In this document: piece by piece, positions 42,226 through 44,063 of the stretch
Numbering within the stretch: position 1 is the first letter of the stretch
Layout of the letters: the number at the start of each line of letters is the position of its first letter
Source of the DNA: Trichocoleus sp.
GTDB taxonomy: Bacteria > Cyanobacteriota > Cyanobacteriia > Elainellales > Elainellaceae
DNA length: 47,392 nucleotides
Reading direction: 5' to 3'
Assembly (NCBI GenBank): GCA_036702865.1
Contig: DATNQD010000025.1
Location: 1 to 47,392, forward strand
Notes under the pieces: generated by a model
The model's input: only the letters and a program-made list of their open reading frames with translations
The model's database searches: none
Told to the model about the DNA's origin: nothing
Translations under genes and position numbers: made by a program

Positions 42226-43281
42226 CTATATGAGGCTGTAACCAATCCCTAGGCGTTTAAGCATCCAATTGAATCGGTGTGCGCCTTGAGACATTTGTTG
42301 AAGTGCATCAAGATCGAGTTCATCACCATATTCCTTTCCTTCATCCATGCCTTCCTGCTGATCGTATGCCTGCCGATCGCACCCTAAGCGCTCCATCACA
42401 ATGTATAAAAGCTCAGAAACTTGCATAGCAATGACTCGATAAAATCGAGAGGCAAATCCGAGATCCTGATGAAGTTTAATGACTAAGTGCGATCGGGGCA
42501 CCGCAAATACTAACGATTCATGAATCGCTCTAACAGTTATTGGTTGACGGGAATCTAAAAAGGCAAAAATTCCTGGCATCTCGCCTTTTGAGATATTAGC
42601 AAACACTCTTTGGGTGCGGGTTTTTTTCTCTAGCCCTAAAAAGCAGAGAGATAACGGATCGTAGTTGCCTTCTGGAGCAGAGACAGATAGCAATCCATCT
42701 AGGATAATGTAGAGCGCATCAACAGGTCTGCCTGCATGCAGCAAAATTTCGTCAGGAGCGAACTTCTTGACTTGACCCGCAGAAACCAACCAGTCAATAT
42801 CGCTATCCTGCATCTCGCCAAAGATAAAAACTGCTTCTTTCCCAGGCTGATCTGCACTAAACCGAAGCCGCTCTGGCATTTCCAGCATTTGTCGAATTCG
42901 TTCAGAAAGGATCAGGGCGATCGCCCGATGCAGATGGGCTGAAAAGTAAATATCTTGTTGTAATTTTTCGGCAAGCTGCTGTCGAGGAATTGCCAAAACT
43001 GTAGAGTTTTGTGTCGCTTTGACGGCGGCGATCGCTGGATGATTTTCTAATAGGGTTGGCAAACCAACCATGTCACCCCGCCGAATCTGAGTGATTTCTT
43101 GAGCTTCCCCTTCATCCTGCTGAATCACACTGAGTAACCCATTTAATAATAGATACACAAAATTAGGTCGATCGCCAGGACGAATGATCAAGGTTCCTGC
43201 TGCAATTTGTTGCTGTTGACCTGCAGTAACGAGCCAGTCAATATCAGCATTCGTTAATTCTTGAAGTAAGATTTCTGCCAT
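42226..43281 (-). CDS. Protein with two cyclic-nucleotide-binding-like domains
   Basis: This 351-residue soluble protein has two CNB-fold domains (~8-120 and ~155-290), followed by an acidic stretch (~310-325) and a tail LQQMSQGAHRFNWMLKRLG. The phosphate-binding cassettes are divergent: GDMVGLPTLLENHPAIA and GEMPGIFAFLDSRQPIT lack the usual Arg-Ala/Ser pair, so cyclic-nucleotide binding is doubtful. There is no helix-turn-helix, so it is not a CRP-type regulator. It is the first gene of the export operon, and proteins of this kind often accompany NHLP transporters. A role in transporter regulation or assembly is inferred. Confidence 0.85.
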   Translation of the reverse strand: MAEILLQELTNADIDWLVTAGQQQQIAAGTLIIRPGDRPNFVYLLLNGLLSVIQQDEGEAQEITQIRRGDMVGLPTLLENHPAIAAVKATQNSTVLAIPRQQLAEKLQQDIYFSAHLHRAIALILSERIRQMLEMPERLRFSADQPGKEAVFIFGEMQDSDIDWLVSAGQVKKFAPDEILLHAGRPVDALYIILDGLLSVSAPEGNYDPLSLCFLGLEKKTRTQRVFANISKGEMPGIFAFLDSRQPITVRAIHESLVFAVPRSHLVIKLHQDLGFASRFYRVIAMQVSELLYIVMERLGCDRQAYDQQEGMDEGKEYGDELDLDALQQMSQGAHRFNWMLKRLGIGYSLI

Positions 43282-43774: not shown

Positions 43775-43844
43775 ATTCAGACGGCTTGGAATAAGGTGCT
43801 CTGGTAATCGATTCAATCTGTTAGAAATTTTAGGAGAAGTCACA

Positions 43845-44063
43845 ATGAGTGAACAGCCCTCAGTCAAAGACGAAGCCCAGCTTTCTGATGAGGAACTTAA
43901 TGGCGTATCTGGTGGTATTAATGAGCGCTTTAAGGAAGCTCATGATGCACAACTCAACAAATCTTCTGAGGATGGAGAGCTTTCTGATAAGCAGCTAGAA
44001 ACTGTTGAAGGGGGAGTCTCTTCTCGCTTCGAGGAAGCCCATCAAGAACAACTAGATAAGTAG
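43845..44063 (+). CDS. Tandem double-glycine peptide precursor, likely NHLP-system cargo
   Basis: The 72-residue peptide starts at ATG 43845 behind AGGAGA (seven-base spacing); an upstream extension of the frame lacks support. It holds two copies of a 33-residue period: LSDEELNGVSGG (13-24) followed by INERFKEAHDAQLNK (25-39), and LSDKQLETVEGG (46-57) followed by VSSRFEEAHQEQLDK (58-72). Fifteen of 27 aligned residues are identical. Each repeat begins with the LSxxELxxVxGG pattern recognised by C39 peptidases and ends in an RF-EAH-QL-K segment. There is no Cys and few Ser/Thr in the cores, and no modification enzyme lies nearby, so the product may be unmodified. It is transcribed away from the export operon whose C39 transporter should process it. 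Confidence 0.82.
   Translation: MSEQPSVKDEAQLSDEELNGVSGGINERFKEAHDAQLNKSSEDGELSDKQLETVEGGVSSRFEEAHQEQLDK

Follow-up and report, generated by a model that had tools for sequence, protein, structure and literature searches.

A two-leader double-glycine precursor of Trichocoleus sp. and the same-genome repeat arrays that match its cores

Introduction

Why would a cyanobacterium encode, in a single chain of 72 residues, two double-glycine leaders that are each followed by a core of 15 residues, and with what would the released pieces act? The gene that raises this question lies in Trichocoleus sp. (assembly GCA_036702865.1, contig DATNQD010000025.1), within a stretch of 47,392 nucleotides that was analysed as a whole and is referred to here as the window. 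Photosystem reaction-centre genes in the genome mark the organism as a phototroph. Precursors of this general kind are numerous, with 290 having been counted in 58 genomes by Wang et al. in 2011 (PMC3140520). In the sections below, we describe the precursor and its exporter, their conservation, and a group of proteins with signal-peptide-like starts that carry the same repeat in the same genome.

The two-leader precursor and its predicted products

The chain reads MSEQPSVKDEAQLSDEELNGVSGG-INERFKEAHDAQLNK-SSEDG-ELSDKQLETVEGG-VSSRFEEAHQEQLDK (translation of the forward-strand open reading frame 43845-44063) and places Gly-Gly pairs at residues 23-24 and 56-57 (Table 1). A sequence-only reading of the window had described an open reading frame of 72 residues with two leader-core repeats at a period of 33, and this description holds: residues 12-39 and 45-72 share 15 of 28 positions at an offset of 33, whereas 20,000 shuffles gave at most 12 identities, which rules out a chance origin of the repeat. 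Its statement that the cores lack Cys is likewise borne out by the translation, and there is no Cys elsewhere in the precursor. By its leader motif and the nearby C39 exporter the protein is of the C39-type double-glycine class, cleavage itself being predicted, and TIGR01847 matches the whole precursor in two stretches (25.6 bits against a cut-off of 15.7). The ATG start was chosen here, as was the matching ATG of each orthologue. Starting instead from an in-frame TTG (43746) would lengthen the precursor to 105 aa, and several orthologues have longer open starts, so that the alignment is no proof of where the precursor begins.

Table 1. Features of the precursor locus in the window (positions on the 47,392-nucleotide stretch).
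Feature	Position	Strand	Basis
Second ABC exporter subunit without peptidase, TIGR03797	36027..39095	-	992.6 bits against 709.4
C39 peptidase/ABC exporter, TIGR03796	39124..41439	-	1123.8 bits against 853.3; Peptidase_C39 positions 2-131 of 133
Short HlyD-like adaptor, 200 aa, TIGR03794	41523..42125	-	155.8 bits, just under the cut-off of 156.2 (by 0.4)
Protein with two cyclic-nucleotide-binding domains, TIGR03896 (bacteriocin-type transport-associated)	42226..43281	-	256.6 bits against a cut-off of 161.05; PF00027 in two stretches; divergent from the precursor
AGGAGA, ribosome-binding-like	43832..43837	+	7 bases upstream of the precursor ATG; read from the sequence
Precursor, 72 aa, two leader-core units	43845..44063	+	ATG start, stop 44061-44063; translation; seven full-length orthologues
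Leader 1, residues 1-24, VSGG end	43845..43916	+	L13, S14, L18, V21, G23 and G24 invariant in 8 of 8
Core 1, INERFKEAHDAQLNK, residues 25-39	43917..43961	+	same 15-mer repeat as in the Sec-type proteins
Spacer and leader 2, residues 40-57, VEGG end	43962..44015	+	E45, L46, S47, L51, V54, G56 and G57 invariant in 8 of 8
Core 2, VSSRFEEAHQEQLDK, residues 58-72	44016..44060	+	translation; orthologue alignment; comparison with Sec-type repeats

The predicted products of cleavage at both Gly-Gly sites are residues 25-57 and 58-72, that is, a 33-mer that consists of core 1, the spacer and leader 2, the latter forming its end, and a 15-mer, so that two 15-mers would need a further cut. Of the earlier proposal that a C39 peptidase frees two related peptides, the two leader-core units therefore stand, but Gly-Gly cuts alone would leave the two products unequal. 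A single-sequence AlphaFold model of moderate confidence (mean pLDDT 71, pTM 0.37) predicts helices at residues 15-42 and 48-71.

The precursor had been set apart from NHLP and Nif11 cargo, and profile scores agree: TIGR03793 (NHLP) gives 18.5 bits against 50.9 and TIGR03798 (Nif11) 15.1 against 32.3, and what the window protein shares with those precursors is confined to the end of the leader motif. Canonical cargo of either kind was rejected on these scores; the precursor also has no long leader and no modification enzyme in the scanned neighbours. Closer to hand is the CTB family of bacteriocins (NF038167, cut-off 32), which likewise consists of short precursors with a double-glycine leader: the window protein scores 30.2, below the cut-off, and the orthologues of genomes G010 and G033 score 36.9 and 32.1, above it. 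Unlike that family, the window precursor has two leaders per chain, and its cores are found again in Sec-type arrays; it stands close to NCBI's "CTB family" as a new form.

The exporter cluster and its neighbours

The exporter cluster is of an already known kind, and to this extent the earlier view of the locus as an undescribed system falls. Group V of Wang et al. 2011 combines a short C39 ABC protein, an ABC protein without peptidase, an HlyD protein and a protein with two CAP_ED domains (PMC3140520), and the window holds all four, with TIGR03796, TIGR03797 and TIGR03896 above their cut-offs and TIGR03794 just below. The main text of that paper contains neither "tandem" nor "repeat", and its supplementary precursor tables may list such precursors (PMC3140520). 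The HlyD-like protein matches TIGR03794 at profile positions 1-57 and 291-419, leaving 58-290 unmatched, and related loci have similarly short open reading frames, of about 180-250 residues, in the same place. With the middle of the adaptor gone, which we take to comprise the lipoyl and hairpin domains, peptide release may be periplasmic and not straight through the outer membrane.

Six flanking proteins were scanned, namely an Abhydrolase_2/esterase, an erythromycin esterase, an MPAB-type oxygenase, an SDR protein, a LuxR-type response regulator and an MFS protein; no peptide-modifying family was found among them, as had been noted earlier for the neighbourhood. A modified RiPP was rejected as a candidate on the absence of such an enzyme from these six neighbours and on the absence of Cys, although an enzyme might be encoded elsewhere in the genome. 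A defence system was also considered and set aside, PADLOC giving no match for five proteins.

Elsewhere in the same genome, another double-glycine peptide, LSTEELTGVSGG..., is encoded at L003:1480-1668 (C28), directly before an OmpR-type response regulator as judged by eye; similar peptides occur at loci L031 and L032 and may represent a second cargo or a signal peptide.

Conservation of the locus in family f1

A search of 98 genomes with the precursor gave a match at E <= 0.1 in 11, and the full two-leader form was found in eight genomes, the window genome included, all of which belong to one family (f1). Twenty positions are invariant across these eight precursors, including those of leader 2 listed in Table 1 and the core residues R28, F29, K39, R61 and F62; the L, S, L, V, G and G positions are invariant in both leaders, and the E position of leader 1 is either E or Q. 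The precursors of G033 and G006 have a third core-like unit. The precursor co-occurs with the exporter cluster in seven further genomes, the C39 gene being out of view in one, so that a lack of co-occurrence with NHLP transporters, which would have refuted the sequence-only reading, was not observed: the cyclic-nucleotide-binding protein and short HlyD genes are present at 7/7 of these loci, the C39 ABC gene at 6/7 and the second ABC subunit, at least in part, at 6/7, with one contig stopping after the HlyD gene. At sequence level, the family thus shows a C39-type precursor of two units that is encoded divergently from a group V NHLP exporter cluster. TIGR03896 is distributed more broadly than the precursor, with matches in 34 of 36 f1 genomes at 1e-20, of which 24 are above the cut-off. 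In G002 the precursor locus has decayed to a remnant of 38 residues with partial matches to the cyclic-nucleotide-binding and HlyD genes.

Two further features of these loci were noted. The two-domain cyclic-nucleotide-binding gene is split into two open reading frames in G032 and G026 (L022:6173-7254 and L025:910-1991) and is whole in G016, of the same genus. Beyond the precursor, a gene for a protein with an AAA_35 ATPase domain was seen in six of the eight f1 loci (L020:7814-9172, L021:10107-11444, L022:4116-5447, three copies in L023, L024:9258-9533, which is a fragment, and L026:8153-9505; Pfam-confirmed in three and assigned by similarity in the others); it is absent from the window, and the contig of L025 ends.

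Sec-type arrays that carry the core repeat

The same genome also encodes proteins that combine a signal-peptide-like N-terminus, judged by eye, with tandem copies of the 15-residue core of the precursor, one of them reading ...ALA-LNERFEQSHRNVLDK-SSERFEKERQDTLDK-RGDRFEEAHRSTLNK-ENERYEKSRRNQLDK. The arrays, referred to here as Sec-type arrays, consist of many near-identical tandem units, as many as 44 matching stretches being counted in a single genome, and the relationship is found from both sides: the double-glycine profile A1 matches Sec-type proteins of G001 at 1.1e-9, 1.3e-8 and 1.1e-7, and the Sec-type query matches the double-glycine precursors of G033 (1.4e-8) and of the window genome (7.9e-4). 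The placement of the repeat is also alike, the precursor core following directly upon Gly-Gly and the first array repeat directly upon an Ala at the end of the signal-like segment in 23 of 34 Sec-type rows, a count that leaves out two rows for which the script stopped inside the array. The 15-residue repeat of the precursor is thus shared with own-genome proteins whose starts resemble signal peptides.

With the Sec-type query, a match at E <= 0.01 was obtained in 18 of 36 f1 genomes. Arrays of the RF type, as we call the window cores, are present in 7/8 genomes with the precursor vs 11/28 of the other f1 genomes (Fisher one-sided p = 0.020; p = 0.036 when the window genome, which is the source of the query, is left out); the eleven array-bearing genomes without an RF precursor include G002 with its decayed locus. 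A comparison of 22 Sec-type loci revealed no conserved neighbour beyond response-regulator-like proteins (6/22) and dehydrogenases (3/22). Both main array genes of the window genome (L034 and L035) have close by a large membrane protein resembling, by eye, a GT-C glycosyltransferase, and this neighbour did not recur in the 22-locus comparison.

Matching of cores and arrays within genomes

The cores and the putatively Sec-exported repeats match within genomes better than chance. In the seven f1 genomes that have both, the observed likeness of cores to arrays was reached by 2 of 5,040 assignments when scored by the best match and by 1 of 5,040 when scored by the mean, counts that include the observed assignment. 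The result persists without G026, a member of a same-genus pair (1/720 by best and by mean), without the window genome (2/720 by best, 1/720 by mean) and without both (1/120 by mean). A replication in eight genomes of a second family, f13, gave 210 of 40,320 assignments by best match and 54 of 40,320 by mean; these tests comprise seven and eight genomes with incomplete array sets. Composition alone was rejected as the cause, because none of 60 column-permuted controls that keep composition reached the real z of 4.21 (control mean 0.38, maximum 3.42).

The match is one of degree. Among 17 genomes, own-genome arrays ranked 6, 3, 3, 1, 2, 1 and 1 by mean score; for 12 of 16 cores with own arrays some foreign repeat scores equal, nearly equal or better, and G016 fits G026 better than its own arrays. 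At the DNA level the best own-genome pairs of core and array repeat are identical at only 24-36 of 45 positions (about 53-80%), which excludes recent gene copying as the cause of the likeness. Nor would parallel descent of two paralogous lines be expected to yield such an excess of matching, a point that we offer as an argument and not as a test.

Such matching could also arise if the double-glycine precursor and protease-cut arrays both yielded the same extracellular peptide, a signal for kin or density sensing whose matching receptor drives divergence between genomes. The short, unmodified, hydrophilic cores, the many near-identical units per array and the combination of matching within genomes with divergence between them would all suit a peptide signal. 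We nevertheless regard this explanation as unlikely: no conserved receptor gene lies beside the double-glycine genes, the response-regulator-like proteins beside the 6/22 Sec loci belong to a common family and are only putatively linked to the arrays, no processing site between array repeats is evident by eye, and two export routes for a single signal are hard to justify.

Other lineages and other core types

Matched pairs of this kind extend beyond f1. Precursors of family f13 (RENLDKD type) read GG-VDFDQLRRENLDKD..., and the same words occur in the Sec-type arrays of these genomes. Among the f13 loci that were fetched, nine carry the complete set of four cluster genes and a further two run into contig ends; no cluster gene is present on the short contigs of L163, L168 and L178 (3.9, 5.3 and 6.6 kb), and L172 has the HlyD gene only. 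L168 and L178, both of G364, thus encode precursors of a mirrored type, that is, one that recurs in arrays, with no exporter in view. A related protein was noted within the fetched stretch at seven of eleven f13 loci (L165, L166, L170, L171, L174, L175 and L176), the one that was scanned containing a DM13 domain.

Three more mirrored core types were found: RPPSGDSNPSD (G008 and G028), RSAEEFKDGLGNK (G038) and RLEHLDNQTK (G251, G164, G188, G182, G349 and G355). In total, 27 of the 31 genomes tested with one of the five core types have matching arrays (RF 7/8, RENLDKD 11/14, RPPSG 2/2, GLGNK 1/1 and LDNQTK 6/6), and none were found in G032, G194, G358 and G211. The five types form four groups, since BLASTP within a set of five sequences pairs the RF with the RENLDKD arrays (E about 1e-5), which also cluster together, and finds no match for the other three; an initial view of five wholly unrelated types was given up on this ground. 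In a search with queries of all five types, each genome with a mirrored-type precursor that matched any mirrored type matched its own. RF-type matches without an RF precursor occurred in G004 and G030, and G009 has RF and RPPSG arrays, yet precursors of other types. The same search missed the RF array of G023, which the Sec-type query had found, so that its negatives are soft.

Mirroring is the property of a subset, as no Sec counterpart was found for 13 other cases of double-glycine precursors, which comprise those of the EDGGFR/DGGF type (G027, G009 and G006), those of G316, G312 and G279, and those with long cores (G004, G023, G030, G294, G303, G274 and G224). These cases rule out that mirroring is universal to double-glycine cargo; in G004, G030, G274 and G224 they were tested through the core of a relative only, in G312 and G279 the cores, of 17 and 15 residues, are near the detection limit, and a set of G009 (L179) stands outside the count. 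Tandem leader-core precursors, for their part, are not confined to the RF type, being found in G328, G217 and G382 of f13 and among the EDGGFR type, with two units in G027, four units in G009 (two genes) and, in G006, two units that end in VSAG instead of GG. The number of export leaders per chain accordingly ranges from two in the window precursor to four in G009. The four-unit chains of G009 are encoded at L213 (C443) and L216 (C72), the second having two different core words, and no Sec-type counterpart was found for either.

Repeats of four unrelated groups occurring in both forms, and arrays that are dispersed and can be many, would also be seen if abundant, recombining arrays had donated repeat DNA to a double-glycine gene served by a promiscuous exporter, in which case the likeness would reflect origin only and no joint function; the decaying locus of G002 fits such capture as well. 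We judge this to be distinctly improbable: the leader motif and residues R28, F29, K39, R61 and F62 are invariant in all eight precursors, whose frame is open in each of the eight genomes, and with matched pairs only about 53-80% identical in DNA the match has lasted since any capture.

A bacteriocin, which together with a signal had been the guess of the sequence-only reading, is a less likely role for the RF peptides. Typical class II bacteriocins are cationic and membrane-active. The RF cores, in contrast, are hydrophilic and range from near-neutral to acidic: the 18 double-glycine cores have a net charge of -3 to +1, average -0.46 in Eisenberg hydrophobicity and contain no Cys. Such properties argue against a membrane-active bacteriocin. 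The explanation that would accommodate the arrays as well is that the double-glycine peptide is antagonistic and that the producer is shielded by its Sec arrays, which would serve as decoys or competitors, genomes with arrays only being immune non-producers. It would agree with the naming of the class by NCBIfam and by Wang et al. (PMC3140520), with the frequency of matching arrays among genomes of mirrored type and with the eleven f1 genomes that have arrays and no RF precursor. It is nonetheless very unlikely in our estimation, as up to 44 matching stretches per genome are odd for immunity and EbfG, a cyanobacterial double-glycine set that has been tested, serves biofilms (PMC4997328).

A proposed dual-route mechanism

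We propose a set of secreted repeat peptides with two routes of export, in which this gene supplies the double-glycine member and acts together with the Sec arrays, a reading to which we assign somewhat less than an even chance. During export, the C39 domain would cut after residues 24 and 57 and release an unmodified 33-mer (core 1 and leader 2) and an unmodified 15-mer (core 2), both probably mostly helical. These one-repeat pieces would meet the Sec-exported multi-repeat proteins in the periplasm or outside the cell, where they would associate with the arrays or bind the same partner as these do; they could, for instance, be minor subunits that nucleate, cap or limit a polymer of the envelope or matrix. 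The separate export routes would hold the partners apart until export, and tandem leaders would provide more short units per chain. Most probably, then, what the exporter releases would be short units, unmodified and near-neutral, that work together with the Sec arrays in the envelope or matrix.

Two described systems offer partial parallels. In Synechococcus elongatus, the small double-glycine proteins EbfG1-4 are needed for biofilm and require the C39 Cys of PteB for efficient export (PMC4997328), EbfG1-3 form amyloid and EbfG4 is found at the surface (PMC9981879). Shared with the window are small double-glycine proteins paired with a C39 transporter, their role in S. elongatus being in the surface and matrix of biofilms. 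The parallel is one of leader class, transporter and role, and the consulted sections of these papers describe neither a two-leader precursor nor a Sec-type mirror (PMC4997328, PMC9981879). In the Fap functional amyloid system (FapD, FapE and FapC), a model that its authors call speculative has the C39 peptidase FapD acting most likely on FapE, the C-terminus of which resembles the fibre repeats (PMC5557850); the parallel lies in a C39 peptidase whose putative substrate is a minor protein with a sequence like that of the fibre repeats. FapD is, however, a separate periplasmic C39 protein, and the Fap repeats are Asn/Gln-rich and amyloid (PMC5557850), whereas the window repeats are charged and predicted to be helical. 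Hydrophilic and helical in appearance, they seem unlike known amyloid repeats.

Significance

The exporter and the leader class are already known; novelty seems to lie in the precursor with two leaders and, most of all, in the Sec arrays that match it. Neither the motif nor two-leader precursors nor mirrored arrays were found described in the mainly open-access literature. The pairing of precursors with arrays, with differing motifs across cyanobacteria, hints at an undescribed system of the cell surface or matrix. A more tentative generalization, though a possible one, is a two-route scheme in which one repeat word is exported both as Sec arrays and as C39-released group V pieces, is kept matched within each genome and differs altogether from one lineage to another (five words that fall into at least four unrelated groups), so that the pairs might constitute a self-recognising polymer with its regulator, or a code of self and non-self at the surface. 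Many cyanobacterial "bacteriocin" precursors are of unknown purpose, and the present finding links one such group with defined partner proteins encoded in the same genome, which suggests that "bacteriocin" is perhaps a misleading name for such loci.
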